Assembly (NCBI GenBank): GCA_002839605.1
Contig: PGYK01000002.1
Span: forward strand, 62,001-126,000
DNA from: Methanomicrobiales archaeon HGW-Methanomicrobiales-3
GTDB lineage: Archaea; Halobacteriota; Methanomicrobia; Methanomicrobiales; Methanospirillaceae
DNA length: 64,000 bases
Direction of reading: 5' to 3'
This document shows positions 16,321 through 46,005 of the stretch, in pieces; position 1 is the stretch's first letter, and each line of letters begins with the position of its first letter. Both the position numbers and the translations under genes were made by a program. The notes under the pieces were generated by a model that had not been told where the DNA came from, did no database searches, and saw only the letters and a list, made by a program, of their open reading frames with translations.

Positions 16321-19300
16321 TTACTTTCCTGTCCACATGGCAAGCCACGGGGGCAGGACAAAGATGAACCGGAAGTCCTGGTCGGACCCGTAGTTGTTGC
16401 TGACGTAGAGCCGGGCAAAGTAGATGCCGGGGTCTGCGTAGAGGTGGGTCGGGTTCTCTTCAGTCGAGCTTGTGCCGTCACCGAAGTACCAGGTGCGGGA
16501 GGTCGGGTTATTGATTGACTGGTCGGCAAACTTGACCGTCATCGGGGGGGTGCCCCAGGTCTTGTCCGCAAAGATCACGGCGACCGGCTTCTTGCCGGCA
16601 GGGGTTGTTTCGCCTTTGACCGTGATGTAGTCGCTCTTGATCTCCATGTCGGTGCCTGCCGCATTGGTCACGACAAGCTTGACGGCGTATTTACCGGCAT
16701 TTGCATAGGTGTAGGTCGGGTTCTTCTCGGTGGAGTCAATCACGCCATCGTTGTTGAAGTCCCAGTTCCACTCGGTGATACCGGTACCCTTGCTCTTGTC
16801 GGTGAACTTGACGGTCAGGGGTGCCTTGCCGGACTGCTTGTTGGCCTTGAAGTTCGCGGTGGGCTTCTCGAGCTGGTTCACCCTGATGAACTCAGCCTTC
16901 TCCATGGTGTCGGAGCCGCCCGCATTGGTGACGGTCAGGCTGACATTGTACTTGCCGGCATTTGCGTAGGTGTAGGTCGGGTTCTTGTCAGTTGAGTCAG
17001 TGACGCCGTCACCGTTGAAGTCCCATGCCCATGCAATGATGTTCTTGCCAACCGACTTGTCGGTGAACTTGACGGTCAGGGGTGCCTTGCCGCTGGTGGG
17101 CTTTGCAATGAACTCAGCCGTGGGCTTTGCGGGCGGGACTGCCGAGACCGTGATGTAATCGGTCTTTGTCTCGGTGACCGTGCCGCCGCTGCCCTTGACT
17201 GCGAGGCTCACGGTATAGTTCCCGGGCGTCGCGAAGGTGTGACTGGGGTTCTGTTCAGTGGAATCAACGATGTTGTCGCCGTTGAAGTCCCAGCTCCAGC
17301 TGATGAGGCCGATGCCGGTGCTCTCATCCGTGAACTGGACGGCGAGCGGGGCATAGCCTGCGGTCAGGTTTGCGGCAAACGCAACGACCGGTGCGGGGAC
17401 CGGCTTTGCGACAATGAAGTCTGCTTTCACCGATTCGCTGCTGCCACCGGCGTTTGCAACGGTGAGGTTCACCGTGTAGTTGTCGGGCGCTGCATACGTG
17501 TGGCTCGGGTTCTGTTCGGTTGAGTCAACGATACCATCGTTCTCGAAATCCCATGCCCAGGTGTCGACCATGCCGGTCGAGTGGTCCTGGAACTCAACAA
17601 GGAGCGGGACAAAGCCGCTGGTCTGGTTTGCGGTAAAGTCGGCTACCGGGGGAGCCATGGTTACCGTGATGTACTGCTCGCGGGCCATCATGTCGGAGCC
17701 GCCGGCATTGGTGACGGTCAGGCTGATATTGTACACACCCGGAATGGTATACACGTGTTCGGGATTCTGTTCCGAGCTGTCAACAACGCCATCGTTCTCG
17801 AAGTCCCATGACCATGCGGTGATGGCTTCACCAACGGACTCGTCCGTGAAGAGGACGGTAAGCGGAGCCGTGCCTGCGGTTGCATTGGCGACAAAGCCGG
17901 CAACCGGTGCTGCGACCGTGACGGCGATATAGTCAGTTTTAACTTCGCTTGCTGCACCTGCCGTGTTGGCTACAGTGAGGTTCACCGTGTAGGTGCCGGA
18001 TGCGGTGTAGGTGTGGGCCGGGCTCATATCGGTGCTGTCAATCACGCCATCGTTCTCGAAGTCCCAGGCATACGTTGCTGCATTTGCCGAGGCGTCGGTG
18101 AACTGGACGGCAAGCGGCGCGGTGCCCGAGAGGGGCTCGGCGCTGAACTGCGGTACCGGTGCAGGTTCGCTGACCGTGATATACGAGGCTTCGGTCTTCG
18201 TATCAGAGCCGGCCGCGTTTGTTACTGTCAGGCTGACCGTGTAGGTCCCCGGTGCGGTGAAGATGTGCATTGGGCTCTGCTCGACATTGTCGATGGATCC
18301 ATCGTTTTCAAAGTCCCATGCCCAGCTGTCAATGGTGCCATTTGAGGCATCGGTAAACTGGACGGTCAGGGGCGCTGTGCCCGAGAGCGGGTCCGCGACA
18401 AAGCCGGCGACCGGCTTTGCGAGCGGTTCGGTGACGGTGATGAGCGCGTTCTGAGTTTCCGTATCAGATCCGCCAGGCCCGGTCACGGTGAGGTTGACCG
18501 TGTAGGTTCCTGCGGTTGTGTAGACAAACGCGGGGTTCTGTATGGTGGAATCAACGGTTCCATCGTTCTCGAAATCCCAGGCATACGCGGTGATGCTGCC
18601 GGCAGACTCGTCCGTGAACTGGACGGTGAGCGGTGCGTCACCATTGGTCGGGACTGCGGAGAAACCGGCAACCGGTGCCGGGGCGGTCACGGTGATGTAG
18701 TTGGGCTTGATCTCGTAGTCAAGGCCGCCCGGGCCGGTGACGGCCATGTTGACGGTGTACACGCCCGGTTCGGTGAAGGTGTAGGTCGGGTTCTGTTCAA
18801 TGCTGTCGGGCTGGAGATCGTTGTTGAAGTCCCAGTAGATAGCAGCGTACTCGCCCGAGGACTCGTCCGTGAACTGGACGGTGAGGGGTGCAACACCCGA
18901 AGTGGGGCTGGCCGAGAACCCGGCAACCGGCGGCTGGACGATGGTCGGCGTCGGGGCTGCGGTCACGGTGATGTAGTCGGTCTTTGTCTCCTCATCGGAT
19001 CCGCCAGTACCGGTAACGGTCAGCTGGACGCTGTAGGTGCCGGGGAGCGCATAGGTGTAGGTCGGGTTCTGTTCGGTTGAATCGATGGTGCCATCGTTGT
19101 TGAAGTCCCAGGAGTACCCGGAGACGTCACCTGCCGATGCATCGGTGAACGCAACGGTGAGGGGTGCCTCTCCATAGGTTGTGTCTGCGGTAAAGTCAGC
19201 AACCGGTGCCGTGGTTCCGGTCGTTACGGTGATGTAGTCCTCTTTGAAGACATTGTCAAAGCCGCCGTCACCGGAGACGGTAAGCTTGACCGAGTAGGAT

Positions 19301-20631
19301 CCTGCATCGGTATAGGTGTGGGTGCAGTCCTTTGTCATGCAGTCAACGGTGCCGTCATTGTCCACGTCCCAGAGCCACGAAGTGATCTGGCCGACAGATT
19401 CATCGGTGAACTGGACGGTCAGGGGGGCATCACCCGAGATCGGATCTGCGGAGAATGCGCCGACCGGTGCCGGAACGGTGCTGCCCGGGAAGGTGAGCTG
19501 GATAACGTTCCCTGCTACTTTCTCGCCGTCATCATAGACTGCGGTGATACTGAAGTAGTAGGTCTCGCCGGCAACAATGGAGCCGCCGAAGTCGCCGCCA
19601 TTATATCCGTCGCCCTCGCTGATGGTGACGGTTGTGGTGGTGCGGTCGGTGAACCAGTGCATGTACCCGTCAGCCGGGTAGGCCGGGTTCGGGTTGTCCT
19701 TCGAGATGACAACCTTGTAGCCGCTGAGATCAGCGTCATCGATCTGCTCCCAGTTCATGACCACGGTGCTGCCGGCAATTCCGGCAGTGACGACCGGAAC
19801 CGTGTGATCCGGTACCTGAGTGGTGGTCGGGGTTGGGGTTACAACATCGGATGCGGTGATATAATCTGCCGTGATCTCACTGTCGCTGCCACCGGTGCCG
19901 GTGACCGTAAGAGAGACCGTGTACGTGCCTGCTGTACCGTAGGTGAAGGTGGGGTTCTGTTCGGTGCTGTCGGTGGTTCCATCATTGTCAAAATCCCATG
20001 CCCATTCGCTGATCCCGTCACCGGTCGAGAGATCGGTGAACTGGACCGTGAGCGGGACGTCGCCGCTTACCGGGCTGGCCGAGAAGCCGGCAACCAGCGC
20101 GGGGATCTGGGTGGTTGTGGGGGTTGGTGTTACGGTGCCTTCAACGGTGAATGAGCCGTCCGCGATAGCGGGGCTCATGATACCGCCGTCGTCATCGTCC
20201 ATCTGATTTAAGGTGATGGTGATTGGGGTTGTTCCGGCCTCATCGGCGCGGAGGGTAAGGGTTGCAAGGGTGATATCGTTGGCATTGTCTGCAACGGTAT
20301 TCATGAGGTCTGCAGCTTTTATGGTAACAGAATCTGCCGGAAGGGTTCCTTTGTTGTTCAGGGTGGCCCATGCGGGGAACGAGACATCGGTGATCTCTCC
20401 CACGGCAGGATTGGTCAGGGTAACGGTCAGTGAATAACCGGATAAGCCGTCAGGCGCTTCGTCAAGGACGATAGCATAGTCGACCGTCTCTCCGGCTCCT
20501 GATGCCGTCACGTCCTGCCCGTTCAGCTGGAAAGCTGAAACCGGCAGGACCAGTGCGGCAAGGAGTACAAGCGTCACGAGAAGGGCAACAAAGCCATTCA
20601 TCGATCCGCTGCGGTTCTGTGTTGTATTCAT
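16321..20631 (-). CDS. Giant PKD-repeat surface protein with cohesin-like N-terminal domain
   Basis: A 1436-residue exported protein. A signal peptide (residues 1-33, ending VLPVSA) is followed by a 125-residue domain starting FQLNGQDVTASGAGETVDYA and closing with LATLTLRADEAGTTPITITL then DGSFTV, an order resembling cohesin domains. One PKD domain (about 175-260), a fibronectin-III-like domain (about 270-385), and 12 further PKD domains of about 82-90 residues follow. Each has the PLTVQFTD and WDFxNDG motifs. No C-terminal anchor is seen; it ends PPWLAMWTGK. Its ATG lies 3 bases past the stop of the upstream dockerin gene, with GGAG in that gene's end. It could act as the scaffold on which the dockerin proteins assemble. 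Confidence 0.85.
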   Translation of the reverse strand: MNTTQNRSGSMNGFVALLVTLVLLAALVLPVSAFQLNGQDVTASGAGETVDYAIVLDEAPDGLSGYSLTVTLTNPAVGEITDVSFPAWATLNNKGTLPADSVTIKAADLMNTVADNANDITLATLTLRADEAGTTPITITLNQMDDDDGGIMSPAIADGSFTVEGTVTPTPTTTQIPALVAGFSASPVSGDVPLTVQFTDLSTGDGISEWAWDFDNDGTTDSTEQNPTFTYGTAGTYTVSLTVTGTGGSDSEITADYITASDVVTPTPTTTQVPDHTVPVVTAGIAGSTVVMNWEQIDDADLSGYKVVISKDNPNPAYPADGYMHWFTDRTTTTVTISEGDGYNGGDFGGSIVAGETYYFSITAVYDDGEKVAGNVIQLTFPGSTVPAPVGAFSADPISGDAPLTVQFTDESVGQITSWLWDVDNDGTVDCMTKDCTHTYTDAGSYSVKLTVSGDGGFDNVFKEDYITVTTGTTAPVADFTADTTYGEAPLTVAFTDASAGDVSGYSWDFNNDGTIDSTEQNPTYTYALPGTYSVQLTVTGTGGSDEETKTDYITVTAAPTPTIVQPPVAGFSASPTSGVAPLTVQFTDESSGEYAAIYWDFNNDLQPDSIEQNPTYTFTEPGVYTVNMAVTGPGGLDYEIKPNYITVTAPAPVAGFSAVPTNGDAPLTVQFTDESAGSITAYAWDFENDGTVDSTIQNPAFVYTTAGTYTVNLTVTGPGGSDTETQNALITVTEPLAKPVAGFVADPLSGTAPLTVQFTDASNGTIDSWAWDFENDGSIDNVEQSPMHIFTAPGTYTVSLTVTNAAGSDTKTEASYITVSEPAPVPQFSAEPLSGTAPLAVQFTDASANAATYAWDFENDGVIDSTDMSPAHTYTASGTYTVNLTVANTAGAASEVKTDYIAVTVAAPVAGFVANATAGTAPLTVLFTDESVGEAITAWSWDFENDGVVDSSEQNPEHVYTIPGVYNISLTVTNAGGSDMMAREQYITVTMAPPVADFTANQTSGFVPLLVEFQDHSTGMVDTWAWDFENDGIVDSTEQNPSHTYAAPDNYTVNLTVANAGGSSESVKADFIVAKPVPAPVVAFAANLTAGYAPLAVQFTDESTGIGLISWSWDFNGDNIVDSTEQNPSHTFATPGNYTVSLAVKGSGGTVTETKTDYITVSAVPPAKPTAEFIAKPTSGKAPLTVKFTDKSVGKNIIAWAWDFNGDGVTDSTDKNPTYTYANAGKYNVSLTVTNAGGSDTMEKAEFIRVNQLEKPTANFKANKQSGKAPLTVKFTDKSKGTGITEWNWDFNNDGVIDSTEKNPTYTYANAGKYAVKLVVTNAAGTDMEIKSDYITVKGETTPAGKKPVAVIFADKTWGTPPMTVKFADQSINNPTSRTWYFGDGTSSTEENPTHLYADPGIYFARLYVSNNYGSDQDFRFIFVLPPWLAMWTGK

Positions 20632-20633
20632 GT

Positions 20634-21791
20634 CTATAACTCCTCGAATAGTTTTGTGATGTCGGCAAAGTCGATACGGCCGTTCCCGTTGAAATCAAAG
20701 TTCGGGAGCGGTTCGTTTTCTGTAATCCATTCCATATGGGTAAAGAACAGCGTGACGTCGGCAAAATCCGCCCTGCCGTTCCCGTTCAGGTCCTCAAAGA
20801 GGCCATCATCACCGGGATCGGTTGGTACGGAACTCATTCCGGGCAGCGGCAGGACCTGCGGCTGAAGAGAAAACTTCTGGACGCGGTTGTGCTGGCCGTC
20901 GCCGACATAGATGTTGCCGGAGGCGTCGACTGCGATGCCGGTCGGGGCATCGAACTGGCCATTGGCGGAGCCGAGACCTCCCCATTCCGTGATGAAGGTG
21001 CCGTCAGCTGCGAACTTCTGGACCCGGTGGTTCATTGTGTCGGTGACAAAGACGTTGTCCTCATCATCGATCGCGATCCCGCCGGGATAGTTGAACTGTC
21101 CGCTGCCAGACCCGCCGGATCCCCAGGTGCTGAGGAAGGTGCCGTCAGAGGCAAACTTCTGGACCCGGTGGTTCCACGTGTCGACAACGTAGACATTCCC
21201 GGCTGAGTCAAGGGCAATGCCGGCCGGGAACGAGAACTGACCTGTGCCCGTCCCCTGCGAACCCCATCGGGTGAGGAAGGAACCGGCCGCGTCGAACTTC
21301 TGGACCCGGTGGTTGCTGTTGTCAACAACATAGATGGTGCCGTCAGCAGCGGTTACGATGCCCCACGGATAGTAGAGCGAACCGTTGCCGGTTCCGGCCG
21401 AAGCGAACTTCGCCAGGTACGCGCCGTCAGGTGCGAATTTCTGGACCCGGTGGTTGTTGTTGTCCGTGACAAGGACATTGCCACTGCTGTCAAGGGCAAT
21501 GCCAAAGGGCATGAAGAACTGGCCGTTGCCCGTGCCCCCGGATCCCCATTTTGTGACAAAGATCCCGTCGGGGGTAAACTTCTGGACCCGGTTGTTCTCG
21601 CCATCGGCAACATAGATCGAGCCGGCGGCATCGATGGCGATCCCGACCGGCATCCGGAACTGGCCGTCGCCGGTCCCGGTCGATCCCCATTGGGTGACAT
21701 ACCCGTAGGTCTCCGCTGCCTGCACGCCCGGGATAAGGATGAGCAGGAGGAGGACGGGGATGAGCCGGACAATTGAGTGGTGGTGTTCCAT
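20634..21791 (-). CDS. NHL-repeat beta-propeller protein with C-terminal dockerin
   Basis: A 385-residue exported protein. After a signal peptide (LIPVLLLLILIPGVQA, about residues 10-26) come six NHL repeats of about 47 residues, each ending NHRVQKF or NNRVQKF and containing the spaced GNGQF/YVADG-type strands of a six-bladed propeller. Such propellers bind proteins, nucleic acids or glycans. Residues about 325-385 are a dockerin-like module with two calcium loops, DLNGNGRADFADV and DFNGNGRIDFADI. The gene is 5 bases from the upstream gene and overlaps the ribosome site of the giant PKD gene downstream, so it is within the operon. Confidence 0.88.
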   Translation of the reverse strand: MEHHHSIVRLIPVLLLLILIPGVQAAETYGYVTQWGSTGTGDGQFRMPVGIAIDAAGSIYVADGENNRVQKFTPDGIFVTKWGSGGTGNGQFFMPFGIALDSSGNVLVTDNNNHRVQKFAPDGAYLAKFASAGTGNGSLYYPWGIVTAADGTIYVVDNSNHRVQKFDAAGSFLTRWGSQGTGTGQFSFPAGIALDSAGNVYVVDTWNHRVQKFASDGTFLSTWGSGGSGSGQFNYPGGIAIDDEDNVFVTDTMNHRVQKFAADGTFITEWGGLGSANGQFDAPTGIAVDASGNIYVGDGQHNRVQKFSLQPQVLPLPGMSSVPTDPGDDGLFEDLNGNGRADFADVTLFFTHMEWITENEPLPNFDFNGNGRIDFADITKLFEEL

Positions 21792-21796
21792 AGCGT

Positions 21797-23365
21797 TCAG
21801 ATCTCCGTAAAGAGCGCCGAAATGTCGGCAAAGTCGATGCGATCGTTGCCGTTGAAGTCAAAGAGTGCAACCGGCTCGTTTGCCGCAACCCACTCCATCT
21901 GGTCGAAGAAGAGGGTCACGTCGGCAAAATCGGTACGGCCGTTCCCGTTGAGGTCTTCATACAATCCGTCGTTGTCCGGATCGGTCGGCGGGCTGGTCAT
22001 GCCCGGCAGGGTGACCGGCTGCTGCACGGTCTTCTCGGGCCCGAGCCGGATGATAGAGAAGCCGGGGTTGGGTTCATCTGCCTGGATGCGGGTGCCGCTG
22101 ATGACAAAACCGCCATCGGCAGTCCTCTCAATCGAGGCAACGGTCGAGTCAGGATACTGGGGAACGTACACGTTCTCCCACACGGTGCTGCCCGTACTGT
22201 CGACTTTGACAACGAGCGCTCCAGCGGAAGAACCAGCGACCATGAAGCCGGCGTCATCGGTCTCCACCACGCCACGGGCATCCGCGGACGGGCGGGACGA
22301 AGCCGGGGTTGATTCCCAGAGGAGGTTGCCGCTGCTGTCGGTCCGTACAAGGTAGATCATGCGGTGGCCGGATGCATCGACCGTGTACCCGGCAGCAATG
22401 AAGCCGCCGTCCGAGGTCTGCCGGACATCGTAAGCCCCGTTCTCCGGGTTGCTGCCAAACTCCTGCTGCCATGCGATGCTGTTGTCGGGATTGAGCCGGA
22501 CAAGGAGCAGTTTTGCTGCCGTGCCGCCCGCGGGGGTGCTTGTTCCTGCAAGGATGAAGCCGCCGTCCGAATTCTGCCGGATGCTCTCCGCGGACTTTGG
22601 AACTGTGCCGTCATAGGCGCCGGAGCCGGTGGTGGTTCCGCTGCCGTCCATACGGATCAGCCAGGCATCGCTGGTGGTTTCGTTCGGATGGTATGACCCT
22701 GTTATTCCTGCAAGGGCAAACGATCCGTCGTTTGTTGTGGTAACCGCGTTGAACTGGTCGGCATACCGGCTGTCTGCCCCGGGCCAGCTGCGCTGCCAGT
22801 AGGCACCGGGCGTGCCATCGTACCCGTCGGCTGCGGTGTGGAGGAGCCAGCCGTCGGTCTGTGGCGGGTTGAACGCCCGCGAGCCTCCGACAAAGACATA
22901 GCCGTCCGTATCGGCAACTGCATCAGTGAACGTGTCAAAGGTGCCGTCGGTTCCATAAAGCCATGCCCATTTCCACGTGGTGTTCCCGTTGACCGGCTCT
23001 TCAAGGACGATTGCTGCGCCCTGCGCCGATTCTTCGGTGCCGCCCTCGCGGGACTCGCCCGCGATCAGGTAACCCCCGTCAACGGCCGGGATAGCGGTCT
23101 TCCCATAGAAGTCTCCGTCCCAGAAGACAGCAAACTTCCAGAGCAGATCGGGCGCTGTCGTGGATGCGGAGTCGCCTGCTGCTGCAAGGCGCATGGGGCT
23201 TGTGGGTGTGTCGTCTCCAAAAACCCTGATACTGGCAGGTTCGATGGACGATCCGGCAGGGTCGGCTTCCGCAGAAACCGGTATGCATGCGAGCGCCAGC
23301 AGGACGCATGCTCCAAGAAAGATGGAGAACGCACGCGATCCGTTCGACTGCTGTGCATACTGCAT
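21797..23365 (-). CDS. Exported repeat protein with C-terminal dockerin
   Basis: A 522-residue exported protein. The signal peptide ends near PVSAEA (residues 15-33). The body has about seven repeats built around DGGFIxAG or DGGFVISG followed by a W-containing strand (e.g. SDGGFIAAGYTVDASGH), resembling delta-60/kelch-like propeller blades. The end is LPGMTSPPTDPDNDGLYEDL and then two dockerin-type loops, DLNGNGRTDFADV and DFNGNDRIDFADI. The second loop has D for G at one position. It lies 5 bases from both neighbours in the operon. The likely job is binding at the cell surface; no enzyme motif is seen. Confidence 0.85.
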   Translation of the reverse strand: MQYAQQSNGSRAFSIFLGACVLLALACIPVSAEADPAGSSIEPASIRVFGDDTPTSPMRLAAAGDSASTTAPDLLWKFAVFWDGDFYGKTAIPAVDGGYLIAGESREGGTEESAQGAAIVLEEPVNGNTTWKWAWLYGTDGTFDTFTDAVADTDGYVFVGGSRAFNPPQTDGWLLHTAADGYDGTPGAYWQRSWPGADSRYADQFNAVTTTNDGSFALAGITGSYHPNETTSDAWLIRMDGSGTTTGSGAYDGTVPKSAESIRQNSDGGFILAGTSTPAGGTAAKLLLVRLNPDNSIAWQQEFGSNPENGAYDVRQTSDGGFIAAGYTVDASGHRMIYLVRTDSSGNLLWESTPASSRPSADARGVVETDDAGFMVAGSSAGALVVKVDSTGSTVWENVYVPQYPDSTVASIERTADGGFVISGTRIQADEPNPGFSIIRLGPEKTVQQPVTLPGMTSPPTDPDNDGLYEDLNGNGRTDFADVTLFFDQMEWVAANEPVALFDFNGNDRIDFADISALFTEI

Positions 23366-23370
23366 AGCAA

Positions 23371-24483
23371 TCAGAGCTCCGTAAAGAGCGCCGAAATGTC
23401 GGCAAAGTCAATGCGACCGTTGCCGTTGAAGTCAAAGAGTGCAACCGGCTCGTTTGCCGCAACCCATTCCATCTGTTCAAAGAAGAGGGTGACGTCGGCA
23501 AAATCCGCGCGGCCGTTGGCGTTGAGATCCTCAAAGAGCCCGTCATTGTCAGGATCGGTGGGGATGCCACTCTGGCCCGGCAGGGTGACCGGCTCTTCGA
23601 CAACCGGGTTTCCATCCCAGCCGGCGATGCGGGCGAACATGTGCCACGCCGCATAGGCTTTCTGGTTTGCGTTCAGGGGCTGGCTGTGGGCCGAACTGCA
23701 GCTGTACCATTCGCCGGGGTGTGCGTTCTGCCACGCGGTTGCCCAGTTCGTGTCCCGGCTGCCGTTGCCATCCGAGTCGTAGTCGCAGTTGTCGTTGGCG
23801 AGCAGGGCCATATAATTGACAAGGCCGTCAGGATCGTAGCTCTCGATATCGGCAAAGTCAAAGAGGACCTTGTTGTTGGCCCGTGCATAGGCGCGGATCT
23901 GCTCGTTTCTCTGGTTCAGGTTGCCGTCCGCTCCCGAACCGGTCAGGTGGCCGGTCATGTACACGAACGTAACGCTGGGGTACTCGCTCTCGAGCTGGTT
24001 CATCAGGCTCAGGTACAGGTCGATGTTGGCCGCTGTTGTGTCGGCCTGCCCGCACCATGACCACATGATGACATTGACATCCGGGTTCGCGTTCAGGTAC
24101 GTGCGGGTGCGGTCTGCCCACGAGGTCCGGTCGGGGTTGCCGAGATCGCCGGACATTGCATAGTCGTGGAGGTCAAGGGCACCGCCCGTGCCGCCATTGT
24201 TCCACCGGTAGGTCTCGCCCCCGTAGGGCGCACCGGCAAACGATACGAGGCCGGTCATGCCGGTCGTGATCTGGCTGCCATGCGAGGTATGCCCGTAAGC
24301 TATATGGAGCGTCGATTTGGCATGATCTATCGCGCTTAAGGGAACCTCGTTGAGGTGGGTGCTGGTGTGGTCGATGATGATCGGCCCGCTCTGGGGCGCC
24401 GCAGCTGCCGGTAGACATACCATGCAGAGGGCGACAGCCAGCACCAGGAAGAGAAAAAATCTGGTTTTGTGCAATCGGTTCAA
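23371..24483 (-). CDS. Exported SGNH-like protein with C-terminal dockerin, first gene of the operon
   Basis: A 370-residue protein. I place the start at TTG 24483, because GGAGG lies 7 bases upstream and the protein then begins with a signal peptide (FFLFLVLAVALCMVCLPAAA). The longer frame to 24627 has no homology or ribosome site. The catalytic-looking domain has IIIDHTSTHLNEVPL, LHIAYGHTSHGSQI and VIMWSWCGQ, and resembles the domain of the fifth operon protein. Family assignment is tentative. The last 60 residues form a dockerin-like module with DLNANGRADFADV and DFNGNGRIDFADI. It heads the five-gene operon. Confidence 0.75.
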   Translation of the reverse strand: MNRLHKTRFFLFLVLAVALCMVCLPAAAAPQSGPIIIDHTSTHLNEVPLSAIDHAKSTLHIAYGHTSHGSQITTGMTGLVSFAGAPYGGETYRWNNGGTGGALDLHDYAMSGDLGNPDRTSWADRTRTYLNANPDVNVIMWSWCGQADTTAANIDLYLSLMNQLESEYPSVTFVYMTGHLTGSGADGNLNQRNEQIRAYARANNKVLFDFADIESYDPDGLVNYMALLANDNCDYDSDGNGSRDTNWATAWQNAHPGEWYSCSSAHSQPLNANQKAYAAWHMFARIAGWDGNPVVEEPVTLPGQSGIPTDPDNDGLFEDLNANGRADFADVTLFFEQMEWVAANEPVALFDFNGNGRIDFADISALFTEL

Positions 24484-24970
24484 ACATATTCCTCCGTTGT
24501 TATTCGTTGATTCAGCAGAGGAGAGGGAAAGGGGATAGCGAAAAAGGCGGCGGGAGTGTGCGGGAGATCCCCCGGAAGCGGGGAATCTTTTGTGCCTTTT
24601 TCGGTATCGTATGTGCTCCTCGTGCAATTGACTGCGGCCGGGTGTCAGGTAGCACAGTCAACAGAACAAAATCAAGAGGAACTGACTTAAATTCGTAAAT
24701 CCGCACCAGTTTGAACGTGGATATCTGCGGTTAGGCTGTTTAACCGGGAAAAAGTGACGGCTTTATTAACCGGATTGGATTTTTTTCTGCAGATAATTGG
24801 CTGCAACGGATGAGGAGCGGTTTTTTTGCATGGGTGGTTTGAAATGCGTGTGGGTATTGGAGTGCGATGCACGGGGGGAATCGGGCCATCTGAAACCAGC
24901 AGGGTTTCGCCGCCCCTGTTCAAATCCCAATCATTAACTCTCCACCCGCCAACCTCCATTCCGGGTACCC
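24484..24970. other. Upstream region of the dockerin operon, no gene seen
   Basis: This stretch of 487 bases carries a hairpin near 24565-24590 (GATTCCCC/GGGGGATC on the minus strand) and A/T-rich segments at 24690-24700 and 24760-24800 that could hold promoters for the operon (minus) or the 24971 gene (plus). Open frames here are short and have no recognisable product. Confidence 0.45.
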
Positions 24971-35424: not shown

Positions 35425-38400
35425 CTAGTCATATTCCCGGAACAGGGCCGGGTTCTGCCGGCGTATCCACCAGCGCCGGACCAGCACAACTCCACATATC
35501 AGGATGGCGCCCAGTATCCCTGCAATGATGACTGGCACCATGAAGCCTGGCACGGTATCCTCCCGTGCTGGTACAGCAGTTGTTTTTGCTGGTGCAGGAG
35601 CCTGGCCCGGGCCTGCCGGCGAGACCTGAGCAGGTTCAGGGCTGCCTGCCAGTTCCCCGAATGTCTCTGATGAGTGGCTGTCAAGAACCCGCTCGTTTAC
35701 AGCAGGGTTTCGTGCAGCGATGGCAAACAGGGAGAACCCGGAACTTTCAGCCGAGAAGAACATCTGGCCGTTCTCGGTCTTCACCCAGGTTGTGGGCAGG
35801 CTTTGCCAGGATCCGGCAGTGTAGTGGTGCAACACGATGTCATCCCGGGTGATCCCCTGTCCGTCTGCCCATGCCTGTGAAACGGAGAACTGGATTGTTG
35901 CGGAGGTTATCGTGGTGTACCGGGCGGGGTTGATCTCGACGTACTGGTAGACCGGGAAGTCCAGTTCCGGTATACCTGCCGTGGGGCCCCAGCGGCTATA
36001 GGCGGTGACGATGATGTCCCGGACCCCGGTGCCGGTAACGGTGACCTGTCGGATGGCGGAACTTCCGCCCACGTTTGCGGTCTGGGTCCCGGGCACCGGT
36101 TCTGCCTTTGAAACCGGCGATGAATCCGAGGTTGAGGTGAGGTAACTGCTGCTGACCGATGATAATGCTGATGCAGCCGGAGGCGATGATGTGGTGGCAG
36201 TTCCCAGGCCCACCACCCCGAATGTCGAGAACCCGCCCGGAACCGTAATCTGGTACGTGGATACGCCTCCCGACGATCCGAGATACGTTGCCGTCAGCAC
36301 CGTGCTGGTGCCACCGTGGGTCCAGACAACCGCAATACCCCCGCTGTTCCGCTCGCGGAAAGCATCCGGCACCGTGATGGTGAGGACCGAACCGGTGATG
36401 GAATTCATACCGGTTGCCGTAATCTCAAAGACCAGGGCTGTTTCGTTCATACGGCTCCCGAGCAGCGACCCGTAAGCAGTGTTCAGGCTCTCGTTTGCAC
36501 CCATGAATGTGAAACTGATGTCGCCGCCGCTGTCATAGGCCGATGCTGAAATATTTGCCTGGAGGGTGGCCGTGCCTTCGGGAATGCTGGCAGTCATCAC
36601 CGGTGTAACGAGCAGGATGCCGGTAATGGTCCCGGTAAGATTTCCGGTCGTATTGCTCACCCCGCTCGTTGAGAAGATGATCTGGTCAAAGCCGCCCTGG
36701 TTGTTTAATATGATCTGGTCGCCGTTCTGCTCTGCACCTCCGGCTCCGGTGAGGTTGACCGAGATCTGGTTGCCGGTAAGGGTGCTGCCTGACGGGAGCG
36801 TTGCACTGTTGCCGGTCGTGCTGTGGGTGGAGATGTAACCGGTTCTGGTGGTCGTGTTGAACCCTGAGCTGTTGGTAATCCGGAACGAGACATCGTAAAG
36901 GCCGACTGCGGTATACTCATGTGACGGGTTTTCAAGCACGGATGTACTGCCATCGCCAAAGTTCCAGAGATATCCGGTGGGGGAGACGACATCTGATGGT
37001 GCGGAGGAGAACTGGACCGTGAGCGGGACTGCACCCGATGTGGTATCCGCTGTGAACGCGGGCAGGGGCAGGGCACCCGACGGTGCCGGCGATGCGGTGA
37101 TGTAACCGTTCATGGTCGTTACATTTGTTCCGGAACTGTTGGTGATGCTGAGAGCAACATCATAGGTTCCTGCAACCGCGTAGGAATGTGATGGGTTTGC
37201 CTGTACCGAGGTGTTGCCATCGCCGAATGTCCAGAGATATGCGGTGGGCATCGTGACTATGGAATCCGCGGATGAGAACTGGACGTTCAGAGGTGCATTC
37301 CCTGTTGTAGTGTCAGCAGTAATGACGGGTATTGGGAGAACCGGAGATGGTGGTGAACTGACGGTAATATAACTGGTCATCGTAGTGGTGTTCGTTCCGG
37401 AGCTGTTGGTGACCTGGAGCGCGACATCGTATGTTCCGGGAATTGAGTAGGTGAATTCCGGGTTGGCGAGAACTGATGTGTTTCCGTCCCCGAATGTCCA
37501 GAGATATGCGGTCGGGCTTGCGACAATGGAATCCGCGGATGAGAACTGTACTGTCAGGGGAGCATTTCCTGCTGTTGTGTCAGCAGATATGACGGGTACC
37601 GGGATTACCGGAGATGGCGGTGAACTGACAGTGATAAAACCTGTCATCGTAGTGGTGTTCGTTCCGGAACTGTTGGTGACCTGGAGCGCGACATCGTATG
37701 TTCCGGCGATCTCGTAGGTATGCGTCGGGTTTGCAAGAGCCGATGAGTTTCCGTCCCCGAATGTCCAGAGATACGCCGTGGGGGAGAACGCATCGGAGAG
37801 CGAGGAGTCGAACGCGACTGGAAGCGGCAGGCTCCCGCTTGTTGTATTGGAACTGAATCCGGGGACCGGTACGGCCCCGCTGCCCCCGCCATCCACGGTG
37901 ATAGAACCGTTGGTGACCGCGAGCGGGCTGCTGATACAGCCATCATAGCAGTTCTGCCAGGTTGCCGGATCAGCGGTCAGAAGGGAATTGGCGCCCGGGG
38001 CCCCGGTTGCCGTGAAGTGGAGGTCGACGAGATCTGTCGGCTCCATGAAGTCCGGCCAGCCCCAGAACTTAATGTAGATTTCAGCCTCACCGGTGGAATT
38101 GTCGATGTCGGCAGTGAGCGTCTCTCCGGAGAATGAGCTGTTCCAGGCGACCTCGTCGAGCTGTACAACGGACGGATCGAACCGGAGCGTCAGCTGGATA
38201 TCATCCGCCATATCAGAGGAGAGGATCTCCGTTGCGGCCAGCATGAAGGTGCCGGACCCCCCGGCTCCAAGCGTGCCCGTGGGCAGGATGATCCGTGGTG
38301 CCGGCGGGTCCTCGACCCAGATCCATTCTTCGAAATAACTTGTGTTACTGCCGTAATCATTGCTCACGGTGAGCGTGATGTTGTAAACGCCGTAATCGGT

Positions 38401-41400
38401 GTATGTATGGACCGGGCGCCGCTCTGTTGAAGTGTCCCCGTCGCCGAAATCCCAGAGCCACGCGGTGGGATACCCTGAGGCGCGATCCTCAAACGAGACC
38501 GTGAGCGGGGGCGGACCGCCACCGGGGTCGCACGATATGAAGTCCCCCACAACGGGCTCAGCGGGTTCGGGCATCAGGACGATATTCTTTGTTACCGTAC
38601 TGTCAGAGATCCCGATGGTGACGGACGTGGTGTTGGCAATAAGGTCGTTTCTCAGGAGCCACGGGGGTTCGGCTTCGAGCGTGTAATTGCCCGGGACAAG
38701 GTTGAGGAACGAATACACACCGGATGCATCGGTCTCGGCATTGGACGGCCATGTCCTGGTGATCGGCCCATCCGTGATCGACACCGCGGACTCATCGAGG
38801 GGATCGCCATAGATGTCGGTGACCGTCCCGGAAATGGAACGGCGCTGGTAGGCAACCACGTCCCACTCGTAACTCTGGCCCGGGGTCAGGTAGGTGTCTT
38901 TAAGCGGGGCCGCGATGACGTCAGAGCCTCCAACGCGGGTATACCTGATATCATACGTTCCGTTCCGCTGGCCGGAGATGCGGTACGAACCGTTCCCCCA
39001 CGAATCGAGCTGGAATACTGATGTAGTCGGACCTTCCGCTATGATGGCCCCCTCGGTAATAATCGTGCCGTTCTCGGCTGTTACGGTCCCATGGATCGCG
39101 ACCGGGCGGAAGAGGGAGAAATTGGCATACGTCGTGCTGCCTGTCGAAAAGCTCACGGATCGGAAATCGGAACTGAAATTGAGGGCCGGCGGTGGCGTGA
39201 CCAGCACCTGCGTTGATCCACCCGTGGCATAGTAAAACCGGTAGAACCCCGCATCGTTCGTTGTTGTGGTCTTCCCGCCCGCGCTGATAGTCACGCTTTC
39301 CAGCGGCCGGCCGATATCATCGCTTATCGTACCCATGAGCAGGGCTGCCGGCCCGAACTGCGTGTGGTCATAGTCTGCTGTGGCATAGGATTCGGGATAG
39401 TAATACGGCGTTATTCCGGAGGAAGTTTTTCCGGCCTGGAGCAATGTTAGATCATACGGACCGTCTATTCCCATGCCATTGATATCCGTTCCAGCAAAGT
39501 CCAGCGTAACATGGTGGGTCATCTGCTGGTCCAGTTGCGGATTGTTTGTAAGCGAGCTGGCAATGACGTTATGGACTACTCCGGTCTGGTTTGCACCTTG
39601 CACGGTCAGTTCGCCAAGAAGGGGGATGGTTGCCGTTCCCGAACTGAACGAGCCGGTCTCCACATCGAAACCAATGCGGATCGCATCGTACATGCCGTCA
39701 CTGTTATAATCGACCGGATAATCGGTGACATTGCCGGTGATCATGACCGGCGGGCTGGCAAAATCCGTATAGTTGAAGGAGACCGTGGTCAGGGGACGTG
39801 ACCGGATATCGGATCCGGGTGGACCGTTTACCTCAAGGGAGCGAACAGAGAAGGTCCCGTTCACCCGGTTGGCATAGATGTCGGCGCCGCTGAACCGGGC
39901 TTTGAGGGTTTGTACACCCGGTGAAAGTTCCCCAATCTCGCCCTGAATTGTCGGTACCTGGCCGTCTATCGTCTGTACCTCGCCGCCCTGTTCATCAAAG
40001 AGGCTGGCGCTGTAGAAGTACCTGGCCTCAGCTGGTACCGTTATTTCGGCAGTGAAGAGGAGGGTCTCGTACCTGCCGTCACTGTTCTGCTGGTCCCCGG
40101 ATGCAGAATAACTGTCAGTGAGGATGGTGGCCAGGGTCCCGAAATCCGACGAATCGATCGTGACGGTTCCTGCGCTCGTGAGCCGGCTCACGGTTGTTCC
40201 CGTGGAATCGAGGATGCGGAAATTCACCATCGTGTAGGTCCCGTCCCGATGGTGTGCAGCGATTGCATTGCCGTCAAATACCAGATCCGCGTTCGCGGCA
40301 CCCGCAGAGAATGTCGAGGTTTCCTGTGCATGGGCGATCTTTTTCCCATCAGGATCCTGCAGGTATCCCTCTATCGTGTATTCCCCGGCCGTGTTGATGA
40401 GGAGGGGGACCGTGACAGAGAGGTCCCTGTCCAGCAGGGAGGCAGTTGCTGTGCCGTCAAACGCCACGCTCACCGGCTCGAAATCCGTGCTGCTATAGGC
40501 TGCGGTCTCCCACGAGACGGATGAGGGTTCCCCGTTCTCGTTCATGTCATGTTTCAGGAGGAGCGTGACATTGTACGGGCCGTCTATGCCATAGGATGAA
40601 ATTGCCGTGCCCTGGAATGATGCGGTATAGGTGAAGGTACCGCTTGCAAACGAGGTCCGGTTGCGGAGGGTCGTGATGACATCGGGGCCGGAACCCTGGT
40701 CACCTGAGAGGATGGCAACGGTGTCGTACATCCCCGGCCAGTCAATCGTGATGTCATTGCCGGCATCCAGCAGATCGTATTTGCCGTTGGCGTTGGTGTC
40801 CTGCGGGTTTTCCGTCATGCCAATGGCAGGGCTCTGTGCGATGATGTCACACATTCCCCCGGCGCACGCTGCAGCAGCCGGGGGGTTCAGGACACCGGTA
40901 ACAACGCTGCCGTTGGCCTGCTTGCCCGGGTATGCCCAGTCGTTTGTGGGGATGCCCCGGCCCGTGTTCCCGGCCCGCATCGCCATGTATTCATTGTCCC
41001 CGTAATATTCGTACTGGGGATGCTTCAGCAATCCGAGAAGGTAGCTGTCTGTGTCGCTGTCAAAGGTTAATGATACCGTATTCTCGTAATCATCGGGAAG
41101 TTTATCGTTGTATGTTTTGTTGCCGAGAACATAGTAGTCGGAGTCGGCCTTCCCGGCGAAACTGCCCCCGGCCAGCCACTGCTCGTTCACCCATTTGTGG
41201 TAATTCTCGTGAGCGATAACCTCAGCCACGCAATCGATGCCCTCGACATCGGGGCCGCCAAAGGACTCTCCTGCAGGATTGTGGTTCGTTGAGGGAATTA
41301 CCAGCGGTGCAGGATAATGGATCGTTGCAGCAAGGGGGAAAACTGCCACTTCCCCGGCCGCGGTTGAAACCCCGTACCCGGGCATGTTCGGGCCGTATTT

Positions 41401-42519
41401 CACGGGAGGAGCCAGGCCCGGGACGGCTCCATCGTCCATCCAGTACTCGAACCAGTTCGGCAGCTGGTCTGCATTATCGTCCACCCAGTTCGGGTACTGC
41501 CCTTTCTCAAAATAGATGGTGAGTGGCAGGGTGACCTCAGAGATTTCCCGGTGCCCGGTCAACCTTTCCTGGACATGCATTTTGGCTTTGAGCCATTTTT
41601 GGCCATAATTGCCGGGAGCCGGCCGGTAGGTCAGGTTCCCGGTATCCGGGAGTACCCGGTGAAGATCCATGTCACCGGTCTTTGTGTCAAACACATAATA
41701 GGAGATGCCAACAATCTCCCAATCGGGAGATCCGGGTTTTATCACCGGGCTGATGGTTATGTCGTGAGTGGTCAGAAGAATATCAGGGTTAATCGTCACA
41801 TTCAACAGTTCCGGCATCTCCGAGGGGGAATACGATGTCTGGATGGTCACATACACATCGTCGATATCAACCCGTCCTGTGTAGAACGGCCCACTGGGAT
41901 TTCCGTCTATCCAAATATTACTCCAGAGGGGCTTGCTCGTGATGGTCAGCTGGTTGCTGCCCTCGTGCAGGATTGCGGGGTCGATCCATCCAAACCTGGG
42001 CGTTGGACCATACGCGCCGAACCAGTCCGTCATCTCCACCCCGTTCACGTAATACACCGGCTCTTCGCAGTTCCATCCCCGCACATTCGCACAGCTGGGG
42101 ATATTCGTTCCCCCCCCGCTGTCACCCGGGCCATCGAAGGACAGATGGGCATAGAGTGCCCGCGAGAGGTTCAAGCCGGCCGGTATGGTAAACGGGTAGG
42201 TCGCCGTTGCTTCGTAATTGATCAGGTTCTCACAACTCTCCAGCCGGAACGTGTTATAATTTAACATTTCATATTCGCACTCGTACCGGCCATTTTCTAT
42301 CCGGTTGCCAAGATCGCCGCCCTCTGTCTCGTGGATGAGGGCCGTTATCGTTCCCCACGGCATGCAGAAAGGGTCGGTCTGGCCGTACGGGCAATAGAAG
42401 ACCTGGCTCTCCGCGAAGGCGGGTCCGCAGAGGAGTAAGGAAGACAGCGTGAGAAGTAAAACAATTATCTCCAATCTTCCTGTTCTTCGAAATTGGTGCC
42501 AAATCCGCCTCGCCGCCAT
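35425..42519 (-). CDS. Giant cell-surface protein: HENYH domain, cohesin, PKD repeats, PGF-type anchor
   Basis: A 2364-residue exported protein. A signal peptide (about 15-36) is followed by an uncharacterised N-terminal half with a zincin-like AHENYHKW motif (His 437, His 441), then three similar beta blocks with GIDGPYNVTLL or GIDGPYDLTLL (about 640-1040). Carboxypeptidase-regulatory-like domains (about 1055-1316), one PKD (about 1317-1405), a cohesin-like domain (about 1406-1542) and four PKD domains of 89 residues (about 1545-1903) come next. A PGF-pre-PGF-like domain (about 2143-2275) has FPVYQYVEINPARY, and near the C-terminus PGFMVPVIIAGILGAILI and a basic tail form a PGF-CTERM-like sorting signal. 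A TATA box (42543-42553) suggests a leaderless transcript. Confidence 0.85.
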   Translation of the reverse strand: MAARRIWHQFRRTGRLEIIVLLLTLSSLLLCGPAFAESQVFYCPYGQTDPFCMPWGTITALIHETEGGDLGNRIENGRYECEYEMLNYNTFRLESCENLINYEATATYPFTIPAGLNLSRALYAHLSFDGPGDSGGGTNIPSCANVRGWNCEEPVYYVNGVEMTDWFGAYGPTPRFGWIDPAILHEGSNQLTITSKPLWSNIWIDGNPSGPFYTGRVDIDDVYVTIQTSYSPSEMPELLNVTINPDILLTTHDITISPVIKPGSPDWEIVGISYYVFDTKTGDMDLHRVLPDTGNLTYRPAPGNYGQKWLKAKMHVQERLTGHREISEVTLPLTIYFEKGQYPNWVDDNADQLPNWFEYWMDDGAVPGLAPPVKYGPNMPGYGVSTAAGEVAVFPLAATIHYPAPLVIPSTNHNPAGESFGGPDVEGIDCVAEVIAHENYHKWVNEQWLAGGSFAGKADSDYYVLGNKTYNDKLPDDYENTVSLTFDSDTDSYLLGLLKHPQYEYYGDNEYMAMRAGNTGRGIPTNDWAYPGKQANGSVVTGVLNPPAAAACAGGMCDIIAQSPAIGMTENPQDTNANGKYDLLDAGNDITIDWPGMYDTVAILSGDQGSGPDVITTLRNRTSFASGTFTYTASFQGTAISSYGIDGPYNVTLLLKHDMNENGEPSSVSWETAAYSSTDFEPVSVAFDGTATASLLDRDLSVTVPLLINTAGEYTIEGYLQDPDGKKIAHAQETSTFSAGAANADLVFDGNAIAAHHRDGTYTMVNFRILDSTGTTVSRLTSAGTVTIDSSDFGTLATILTDSYSASGDQQNSDGRYETLLFTAEITVPAEARYFYSASLFDEQGGEVQTIDGQVPTIQGEIGELSPGVQTLKARFSGADIYANRVNGTFSVRSLEVNGPPGSDIRSRPLTTVSFNYTDFASPPVMITGNVTDYPVDYNSDGMYDAIRIGFDVETGSFSSGTATIPLLGELTVQGANQTGVVHNVIASSLTNNPQLDQQMTHHVTLDFAGTDINGMGIDGPYDLTLLQAGKTSSGITPYYYPESYATADYDHTQFGPAALLMGTISDDIGRPLESVTISAGGKTTTTNDAGFYRFYYATGGSTQVLVTPPPALNFSSDFRSVSFSTGSTTYANFSLFRPVAIHGTVTAENGTIITEGAIIAEGPTTSVFQLDSWGNGSYRISGQRNGTYDIRYTRVGGSDVIAAPLKDTYLTPGQSYEWDVVAYQRRSISGTVTDIYGDPLDESAVSITDGPITRTWPSNAETDASGVYSFLNLVPGNYTLEAEPPWLLRNDLIANTTSVTIGISDSTVTKNIVLMPEPAEPVVGDFISCDPGGGPPPLTVSFEDRASGYPTAWLWDFGDGDTSTERRPVHTYTDYGVYNITLTVSNDYGSNTSYFEEWIWVEDPPAPRIILPTGTLGAGGSGTFMLAATEILSSDMADDIQLTLRFDPSVVQLDEVAWNSSFSGETLTADIDNSTGEAEIYIKFWGWPDFMEPTDLVDLHFTATGAPGANSLLTADPATWQNCYDGCISSPLAVTNGSITVDGGGSGAVPVPGFSSNTTSGSLPLPVAFDSSLSDAFSPTAYLWTFGDGNSSALANPTHTYEIAGTYDVALQVTNSSGTNTTTMTGFITVSSPPSPVIPVPVISADTTAGNAPLTVQFSSADSIVASPTAYLWTFGDGNTSVLANPEFTYSIPGTYDVALQVTNSSGTNTTTMTSYITVSSPPSPVLPIPVITADTTTGNAPLNVQFSSADSIVTMPTAYLWTFGDGNTSVQANPSHSYAVAGTYDVALSITNSSGTNVTTMNGYITASPAPSGALPLPAFTADTTSGAVPLTVQFSSAPSDVVSPTGYLWNFGDGSTSVLENPSHEYTAVGLYDVSFRITNSSGFNTTTRTGYISTHSTTGNSATLPSGSTLTGNQISVNLTGAGGAEQNGDQIILNNQGGFDQIIFSTSGVSNTTGNLTGTITGILLVTPVMTASIPEGTATLQANISASAYDSGGDISFTFMGANESLNTAYGSLLGSRMNETALVFEITATGMNSITGSVLTITVPDAFRERNSGGIAVVWTHGGTSTVLTATYLGSSGGVSTYQITVPGGFSTFGVVGLGTATTSSPPAASALSSVSSSYLTSTSDSSPVSKAEPVPGTQTANVGGSSAIRQVTVTGTGVRDIIVTAYSRWGPTAGIPELDFPVYQYVEINPARYTTITSATIQFSVSQAWADGQGITRDDIVLHHYTAGSWQSLPTTWVKTENGQMFFSAESSGFSLFAIAARNPAVNERVLDSHSSETFGELAGSPEPAQVSPAGPGQAPAPAKTTAVPAREDTVPGFMVPVIIAGILGAILICGVVLVRRWWIRRQNPALFREYD
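37377..37706 (-). repeat. Near-identical repeat DNA in adjacent PKD domains
   Basis: Within the giant gene, 37377-37439 and 37644-37706 match at 62 of 63 positions. The interval of 267 bases is exactly 89 codons, one PKD unit. This is much closer than the protein-level similarity among other PKD units, so it marks a recent duplication or gene conversion. Confidence 0.8.
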
Positions 42520-43731: not shown

Positions 43732-46005
43732 CTATTTTCGTGCGTCTTTTGCACCGGGCGGGTGGAACCGGTACGCGTCCATTGGAACGTCAATCTCAAA
43801 CCGGGCCCCCTTCCCTGCCTCGCCACACTCCCGGATGGTCAACCCGGTGATGGAGAGGATCTCGCGGGAGAGGAAGAGCCCAAAGCCGGTATGTCTGCCG
43901 TACCCCCACTCAAAGATCCGCTCCTTCTCGTGGGGGGCAATCCCGATACCGTTATCCTCGCAGATGATGGTGACCCCCGTATCGGTCACCGTTGAGGAGA
44001 TTTTCACCCACGTGGCCCGTTCCCCGTGACGGAACGCGTTCTCCAAAAGCGTGAAGAAGACCTTCTCGAGCAGGGGATCGGCAAAGAGTTCAAGGTCGCC
44101 GGTATGTACCGTGCAGCTGATCTTTTCGTTCTGGAAATCGCAGCAGGCTTTGGTAACAATCTGCTCAACATTCTGCCAGGTGGGGGCGTGCACCCCGACA
44201 TTCTGGTAGAGCCGGGTGAAGATCATGTGGCGGTCGACGACTGCTGCGGCTTTTTGCGCTGTTGCAAGATATTTCCGGGCGTCCGGGTTCTCGATACGAT
44301 CTTCGGCCAGTTTGATGTACCCGGTCAGGATCGTGAGCTGGTTGAGGATATCGTGGCGGGTGATCGAGCTGAGCAGGTTGAGTTTCTTGTTCGCCTGCCG
44401 GAATGCATCTTCCTTTCTTTGCAGTTCCGCTGTCCGCTCGTCCACCCGGTGTTCGAGTTCGGCGTAGAAACGGCGCAGCTGCTCCTCTGCCTCTTTCCGG
44501 GCGGTAATATCCGAGAAGATCCCGTCTGCGTACCAGGTGCCGTCCCGTTCATATACTGCGGTGGACCGGTCATGCAGCCAGATCCAATTCCCATCCTTTC
44601 TTTGGATCCGGTACTCGATGTCGAATGTGTTTTCGGTAAACAGGGACTGCCATGCACTGGTTACCCGTAGATGGTCCTCCGGGTGTATCCGGTCAAAGAA
44701 AAGCAGCGCCTCCTGCCCGCAGATCTCATAAGGCGTATACCCGTACACCATCTCCACGTTCGGGCTGATGAACACGGTCCTGCCATCCCGTGTGGAGGTC
44801 CAGAGAACGTCCGGGATATTCTCAATAAGCCTGCGGTACCGCTCCTCACTTACCTTCTCGCGCCCGATTGCCGCGTTCAGCGTTGATACCATGGTGTTGA
44901 CGCTCTCTTCAAGCACAACAAACTCGTGCCCGATAGCCGGTGGCGCAATGGTGTGGTCCAGATCCCCCCGGGCGATCCGGTCAACGTCCGAGACGATCTG
45001 GTACACCGGACGGGCAAGGAACCGGGCCAGGAGGATGGCGGCAACGATCCCGAGGAGCACCGCCATCAGCCCGACGATGAAGTGAGTGATGAGCAGATCA
45101 TTGAGCTGCTTGTGGATGAGGGTAGTATCGTACGTGATCCGGACAATCCGGCTCACATCGGAACCATACTGGTTGTCCATGAGATCCACGAAGAGGTAGG
45201 TAGTTTTTGTTCCCGCCCCGGGATTCTCCCGTTCCATGCCGGTTCTCGTGGCTATGATCCGGTCGAGATCCGCCTCCGTGGCGGTGTCCGGCAGCGGTGC
45301 CGCAGGATTGACCGGTTTTTTGACGATATCGTATATCACGACGTCCCTGACAAAGGGGTTGAGGTACGCCATCTGGTCGATTTTTTTCTGGTAGGATGCA
45401 AACGAGTGCTGCTGGTCATAAAGGGGACCGGTGAGGCCGATCTCGAAGATATACCGGTGATCGGGCGTGGGCATGTAGGCGTACTTCCGGAGATTGCCCG
45501 TTGTGAGCTCGCCCACCACCCGGTCCGAGAAATATCCCTCCGACTGGCGTATGCCGGTCAGGTATTGGGAAAAGTAAGGGACGGTGCGGAAGTCCAGCCC
45601 GAGGTCCGGGCTGTAGGTCGTGTACTCAATGACATTCGATTCGTTGACGATGTAGAGGTCGATATTTTCGCCAATCTCCTCCCTTATCGCATCGAGATCC
45701 ATCTTTGCCGGATCCCTGCCCGCCCGCTCGTACCCGGCCATGAACACGCTGAACCCGTCCATGAGTTTCTCGTTCTGGCTGTCATCGAAGAGCCGGAACC
45801 CGGCATCGATGATCCCGACCGACTGGATGATGTTCTTCTCGGTCTGGACCTGCAAAAACGCTGCATTCTGCTCGTAGTTCTGTTTTGCCTGGAGGTAATC
45901 GGTGACCGTGATCCCGGTTGCGACAAGCATGATGAGCAGGACCATGGCTACGAGCAGGTAATGCGAGAACGGCCGCTGCTGGTCCGGTGGCTTGGGAAGA
46001 TCCAT
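43732..46005 (-). CDS. Membrane sensor histidine kinase (Cache-type sensor, HAMP, PAS)
   Basis: A 757-residue kinase. There are two membrane helices, at about residues 16-38 and 302-326, with a roughly 260-residue extracytoplasmic region between them that looks like a Cache sensor. HAMP (about 327-380), PAS/PAC (about 395-510) and a coiled coil lead to the phospho-acceptor box SSITRHDILNQLT (His 551). The ATPase domain (about 640-745) has LLENAFRHG, CEDNGIGIAPHEKERIFEWGYG and GLFLSREILSITG. No response regulator gene is adjacent, so its partner lies elsewhere. The ATG is preceded by AGGCAGGAAAA. A 25-base inverted repeat lies 88 bases upstream. Confidence 0.9.
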   Translation of the reverse strand: MDLPKPPDQQRPFSHYLLVAMVLLIMLVATGITVTDYLQAKQNYEQNAAFLQVQTEKNIIQSVGIIDAGFRLFDDSQNEKLMDGFSVFMAGYERAGRDPAKMDLDAIREEIGENIDLYIVNESNVIEYTTYSPDLGLDFRTVPYFSQYLTGIRQSEGYFSDRVVGELTTGNLRKYAYMPTPDHRYIFEIGLTGPLYDQQHSFASYQKKIDQMAYLNPFVRDVVIYDIVKKPVNPAAPLPDTATEADLDRIIATRTGMERENPGAGTKTTYLFVDLMDNQYGSDVSRIVRITYDTTLIHKQLNDLLITHFIVGLMAVLLGIVAAILLARFLARPVYQIVSDVDRIARGDLDHTIAPPAIGHEFVVLEESVNTMVSTLNAAIGREKVSEERYRRLIENIPDVLWTSTRDGRTVFISPNVEMVYGYTPYEICGQEALLFFDRIHPEDHLRVTSAWQSLFTENTFDIEYRIQRKDGNWIWLHDRSTAVYERDGTWYADGIFSDITARKEAEEQLRRFYAELEHRVDERTAELQRKEDAFRQANKKLNLLSSITRHDILNQLTILTGYIKLAEDRIENPDARKYLATAQKAAAVVDRHMIFTRLYQNVGVHAPTWQNVEQIVTKACCDFQNEKISCTVHTGDLELFADPLLEKVFFTLLENAFRHGERATWVKISSTVTDTGVTIICEDNGIGIAPHEKERIFEWGYGRHTGFGLFLSREILSITGLTIRECGEAGKGARFEIDVPMDAYRFHPPGAKDARK

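Follow-up and report, generated by a model that had tools for sequence, protein, structure and literature searches.

The window analyzed here is a 64,000-nucleotide stretch of DNA from a methanogenic archaeon whose genome is 98% complete in 18 contigs. On its minus strand it encodes a giant surface protein, P0001, in an open reading frame of 2364 aa that starts with ATG and has 0 internal stops. Its features are as follows (all on the minus strand; conservation refers to the 38-row alignment described below).

35425..42519 (-), whole gene of P0001, a 2364-aa multidomain surface protein
42412..42519 (-), signal-peptide-like stretch, residues 1-36 (hydrophobic 18-36, ...CGPAFA/ES; sequence and hydropathy)
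41827..42411 (-), N-terminal module with no recognized fold, residues 37-231 (no Pfam match)
41506..41826 (-), Ig-like beta-sandwich, residues 232-338 (model pLDDT about 97)
40891..41514 (-), HExxH core domain of an unnamed family, residues 336-543
41197..41211 (-), HExxH motif H437-E-N-Y-H441, in helix 428-447 (invariant, 38/38)
41083..41145 (-), EF-hand/TSP3-like putative calcium loop, residues 459-479 (D459, D472 and E479 in 38/38)
40987..41004 (-), YGDNEY, residues 506-511, with D508 and the candidate third ligand E510 (38/38)
40936..40941 (-), D527-W528 of the DWAxPGKQ motif (invariant, 38/38)
40228..40422 (-), partial DxNGNGxYD beta-sandwich repeat, residues 700-764
39754..40110 (-), DxNGNGxYD beta-sandwich repeat copy, residues 804-922
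39343..39732 (-), DxNGNGxYD beta-sandwich repeat copy, residues 930-1059
38668..39333 (-), CarboxypepD_reg-like beta-sandwich domains, residues about 1063-1284 (PF13620, 2.5e-18)
38338..38526 (-), PKD domain 1, residues 1332-1394 (PF18911)
37888..38310 (-), cohesin domain, residues about 1404-1544 (profile)
36826..37872 (-), further PKD domains, residues about 1550-1898 (Pfam)
35716..35955 (-), PGF-pre-PGF domain, residues 2189-2268 (NCBIfam TIGR04213)
35428..35553 (-), VPGF, one hydrophobic helix and a basic tail, residues 2323-2364 (sequence)

When checked against the reading frame, Pfam and NCBIfam, the domain order of the original prediction, which had been made from the letters alone, largely holds. 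Five PKD stretches are detected by Pfam, which has zero matches over residues 37-1060, in line with the earlier description of an N-terminal half without a recognized family. The module at residues 37-231 is restricted to close archaeal homologues, in which matches begin at residue 37 or 104, and the Ig-like domain that follows it aligns with beta-sandwich domains at Z-scores of up to 11.4 (VIA-align 2; rmsd 1.6, 90 residues aligned). The DxNGNGxYDxL repeats come after the HExxH domain both in P0001 (39343-40422) and in bacterial homologues, some of whose repeats match the DUF4785 C-terminal domain.

Upstream of P0001, on the same strand, lies a PAS/HAMP histidine kinase gene (43732-46005). 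In Methanoregula UBA11803 (L022) the orthologous giant gene is likewise preceded by an orthologue of this kinase (84%), and at L024 the kinase in that place is a different one. We dropped a functional link between kinase and P0001, since of the three genomes with a histidine kinase gene in this position only one has a clear orthologue (84%).

At the C-terminus, TIGR04213 matches the predicted PGF-pre-PGF domain at 69.4 bits over residues 2189-2268 (cut-off 28). The VPGF is followed by a hydrophobic stretch at 2329-2347 (Kyte-Doolittle 2.8) and then by basic residues, so that the layout of the archaeosortase-type tail proposed earlier stands; its profile counterpart does not, as TIGR04126 (PGF-CTERM) gives no match to the tail even at E 10. 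The original prediction had also tied this tail to artA, and the genome holds two archaeosortase A genes (290 and 179 bits, cut-off 75). Two such genes in one genome (L001, L002) would allow for two substrate classes. As the PGF-CTERM model is unmatched, we regard cleavage of the tail by ArtA as plausible only, and the tail may possibly be a plain transmembrane anchor. Among the homologue loci examined by tblastn, some of them incomplete or on broken contigs, no C-terminal anchor was found.

A widespread HExxH domain family

The HENYH sequence was originally placed at residues 437-441 and described as having the zincin-like order; the position is exact, and the motif is kept in all 38 aligned sequences. 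HExxH arises in 1.7% of shuffles of P0001, and at the level of sequence HENYH is not a chance occurrence. A search with residues 37-640 of the 232 genomes of the class gave matches in six, the window's own included, and HExxH is kept in all seven proteins from those genomes. When a profile built from these seven was run against one genome per species (84,980 species), 37 loci were recovered, spanning Methanomicrobiales, Methanophagales, Bacteroidota, Desulfobacterota, Nitrospirota, Planctomycetota, Kiritimatiellota, Acidobacteriota, Chloroflexota and others. Together with P0001 they form an alignment of 38 rows, in which H437, E438, H441, D459, D472, E479, D508, E510, D527 and W528 are the same throughout, and D461 is kept in 37. 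The scan patterns were PNW[FY]xYW[KM] and YGD[NQE]EY[ML][AC], and conservation within both stretches is hence biased; HExxH lies in neither pattern, and D508 and E510 are kept in all 24 rows without the YGD pattern.

Four of the conserved acidic residues can be assigned to a putative calcium loop. It has the form D459-x-D461...D472-x-L-P-D-x-x-E479 with a hairpin inserted, and once the small insertion of P0001 is removed, the spacing of D459, D461, D472 and E479 is that of the EF-hand/TSP3 loop, D-x-D-x-D-G-x-x-x-x-x-E; one homologue (L039) matches PF18884 TSP3_bac. With these residues taken up by the loop, D508, E510 and D527 are left as possible further metal ligands. Where the third ligand of HENYH had earlier seemed not to be obvious, a candidate can now be named, the invariant E510, 68 residues past H441, and D508 or D527 could take its place.

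Neither Pfam nor NCBIfam has a family model that covers the HExxH domain, and PDB sequences gave no match to the domain profile up to E 10. Viral contigs scanned with the N-terminal domain yielded no relative, and a limited literature search found nothing on such a metallopeptidase family.

The domain occurs in several architectures. In Methanocalculus taiwanensis (L025/L042) its partners are an NHL propeller and a dockerin at the C-terminus; the gene (L025:7978-11232) also codes for PKD and adjoins that of another dockerin protein. A Methanoregula paralogue (L027) joins the HExxH domain to a PQQ-like propeller and PKD, a Bacteroidales protein (L032) to GEVED and a Por secretion tail, and a planctomycete protein (L048) to ankyrin repeats. 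Being dockerin-borne in one methanogen and cohesin-borne in P0001, the domain is present on both sides of docking systems. Horizontal transfer between archaea and bacteria was not upheld: the archaea are scattered on the domain tree (4 changes), but a single origin of the domain across the two is still possible.

Predicted fold of the core and its reading

An AlphaFold model of residues 232-562 (pLDDT 90.6) shows the Ig-like domain followed by the core. Foldseek searches with this longer model were swamped by the Ig domain, and the core (336-543) was therefore modeled alone, with a pLDDT of 94.2 and a pTM of 0.90. In this model the HExxH motif sits in a long helix (428-447), the calcium loop runs into a helix at 476-483, and D508 and E510 begin the next long helix (507-517). 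The predicted helix order of the core matches that of gluzincins, in which, as in the M1 and thermolysin groups, a Glu near the beginning of a following helix serves as third ligand.

Compared with solved structures, the core gave no Foldseek match under E 0.001, the top one being a 21-residue stretch of the B domain of the biofilm protein Bap, and no viral structure matched under E 2. A second structural alignment (VIA-align 2) reached a Z of at most 4.3. The rows that span most of the core are nearly all HExxH+Glu peptidases (Z 2.1-3.3, rmsd about 4 Å), among them ERAP1 (Z 3.3, rmsd 4.3, 97 aligned), PPEP-2 (Z 3.2, rmsd 4.2, 106 aligned) and aminopeptidase N, an alignment that is suggestive only. 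We read the HExxH domain as an unnamed gluzincin-like metallopeptidase family, and because the structural Z-scores are low, this reading draws mainly on the conserved residues and the predicted order of the helices.

Were the domain a zincin of another subtype, for instance aspzincin-like, D508 or D527 would supply the third ligand. Both equal E510 in invariance, and two members weakly match PF14521 Aspzincin_M35 (7.3e-5 and 0.068), the stronger of which also counts toward a zincin as such; these matches, however, fall under the curated cut-off (30 bits) and come from only 2 of 38 members. The structural rows are Glu-type zincins and the invariant Glu lies early in its helix, as in gluzincins, both of which argue against an aspzincin, so that we consider this subtype unlikely. 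M35 and M48 structures are missing from the rows of the second alignment, which says nothing either way.

The domain might also retain a zincin fold and no longer be proteolytic, acting as an adhesin or as a calcium-stabilized module of the stalk. The adhesive domains around it, the calcium loop and the origin of the best Foldseek match in Bap would all suit such a role, but none of the 38 rows has lost E438 or either His, residues that a pure scaffold could do without; we give the loss of proteolysis marginally less credence than the aspzincin alternative. The gluzincin-like reading remains the one we prefer.

Cohesins, dockerins and the partner question

The original prediction also offered P0001 as a possible anchored receptor for dockerin proteins, three in number, whose genes lie 11 kb away, because a 1436-residue protein (P0002) has no visible anchor. 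The features there are the following.

16321..20631 (-), P0002, 1436 aa, with 13 PKD stretches
20134-20532 (-), cohesin-like N-terminus of P0002, residues 34-166 (PF00963)
20637..20846 (-), dockerin of the NHL-propeller protein (20634-21791)
21800..22009 (-), dockerin of the 522-aa protein (21797-23365)
23374..23583 (-), dockerin of the 418-aa protein (23371-24627)

By itself the P0001 cohesin scores 12.2 bits against PF00963 (cut-off 24.1). PF00963 is, however, matched by 13 of 16 relatives of this domain (best 3.3e-11), which bears out the predicted cohesin flanked by PKD domains, and a profile of the relatives matches solved cohesins (best 2.3e-8); judged by profile, it is a genuine cohesin. 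It is kept in the P0001 relatives of G190, a genome of the same genus, and of G101 and G102.

The four minus-strand genes of the compact operon at 16321-24627 are separated by gaps of a few bases, with P0002 last, and the pairing of dockerin proteins with a cohesin-like protein recurs across the class. One of the dockerin proteins carries an NHL propeller, another a delta-60-like repeat, and the 418-aa protein has no other family match. P0002 shows no C-terminal helix, consistent with its earlier description as lacking a visible anchor. Its residues 34-166 score 18.1 bits against PF00963 (E 0.0033, cut-off 24.1) in an alignment that takes in nearly the whole model, and its cohesin-like family is present in 95 of 232 genomes. 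As no cohesin was matched when this family was compared with PDB sequences, the cohesin status of P0002 depends on the PF00963 score and the operon pattern. Merging the two cohesin types was rejected, as a profile comparison gave only 9.6% probability, and they were kept apart.

Part of the genomic context fits the receptor proposal. The P0001-type (A3-type) cohesin profile has its single match in the genome in P0001, and the only dockerins over cut-off in the genome, exactly three and nearly identical to one another, lie in the same window (20637-23583). In addition, G101 has the operon dockerin type and a P0001-type cohesin without a P0002-type cohesin. The distribution across the class points the other way. 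The three dockerins share their operon with P0002, itself bearing a cohesin-like domain. Taking E under 1e-10 as a strong match to the operon dockerin type (86 of 232 genomes), a P0002-type cohesin is present in 81 of these 86 genomes versus 14 of the 146 others (odds ratio about 153, kinship ignored); within the genus the figure is 6 of 7 genomes with the strong dockerin type, and in about ten genomes the two lie within 0.3-2 kb of each other. For the P0001-type cohesin, no such link to the operon dockerin type is seen (8 of 27 genomes, odds ratio 0.69, kinship ignored); it is associated instead with genomes that have other dockerin types (odds ratio 7.3, kinship ignored). Moreover, the weakly matching dockerins of G190 are on contig C288 beside another cohesin, away from the P0001 orthologue. 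Judging by the operon and the co-occurrence pattern, the three dockerins probably pair with P0002, the P0001 cohesin has no obvious partner in its own genome, and the role of P0001 as their receptor becomes improbable.

A model for P0001 and its relation to known systems

We propose, with a probability of roughly 0.7, that P0001 is a secreted and probably membrane-anchored protein that combines a metallopeptidase-like domain, a stalk and a cohesin. A catalytic zinc would be coordinated in the gluzincin arrangement by H437 and H441, which share a helix, and by E510, which opens a later helix; E438 would activate the water, and the EF-hand-like calcium loop (D459, D461, D472 and E479) between the helices would brace the site. 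The Ig, CarboxypepD_reg and PKD domains would act as a stalk that keeps the domain off the cell, and the cohesin on this stalk would dock a dockerin protein, probably other than the three encoded 11 kb away. A broader proposal could as well be right as wrong: that the domain defines a widespread family of unnamed secreted metallopeptidases, in which an EF-hand-like calcium loop between the metal-ligand helices may serve to brace the active site or to switch it, and which methanogens display on cohesin- or dockerin-bearing surface proteins.

What began as a lone HExxH sighting is now a family defined by its invariant residues, with a candidate third ligand that can be put to the test; the case for a protease-like domain is strengthened to the level of a family, and the receptor hypothesis is weakened. 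Its members come from methanogens, from ANME-type archaea and from many bacterial phyla, yet Pfam and NCBIfam lack it, and to our knowledge few peptidases have been described that methanogens display on their surface. With one dockerin type paired with one cohesin type in a conserved operon, the specificity of archaeal cohesins for dockerins can also be tested on a small scale, using three dockerins and two cohesin types.

Among known peptidases, gluzincins such as M1 aminopeptidases (for example ERAP1) and the Pro-Pro endopeptidases PPEP-1/2 resemble the P0001 core in having HExxH in a long helix, in the invariant Glu with which a later helix begins and in a weak structural alignment across most of the core. 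They differ in that Z is low and the P0001 domain is without a sequence match in Pfam, NCBIfam or the PDB, and in that the P0001 family has a calcium loop between the two helices and invariant PNW..YW, D-x-E and DW motifs. Aspzincin M35 (PF14521) shares HExxH and the weak match in 2 of 38 members, which is below the cut-off, whereas the P0001 family has an invariant Glu besides Asp. Substrates of archaeosortase A with a PGF-CTERM are similar in the PGF-pre-PGF domain, the PGF, helix and basic tail, and the presence of ArtA in the genome; the P0001 tail differs in being unmatched by TIGR04126 and in its longer basic portion.

Archaeal cohesins and dockerins outside cellulose degradation are known, including in ANME, and dockerin binding by archaeal cohesins has been shown, as reviewed (PMC9012536). 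P0001 resembles the non-cellulosomal systems of ANME and Archaeoglobus (PMC9012536) in its cohesin, identified by profile, and in the dockerins of the same genome, in which no multi-cohesin scaffoldin was found. Unlike in those systems, two cohesin types are present in the P0001 genome, and the P0001 cohesin is part of a fusion with both a metallopeptidase-like domain and the PGF-pre-PGF tail.
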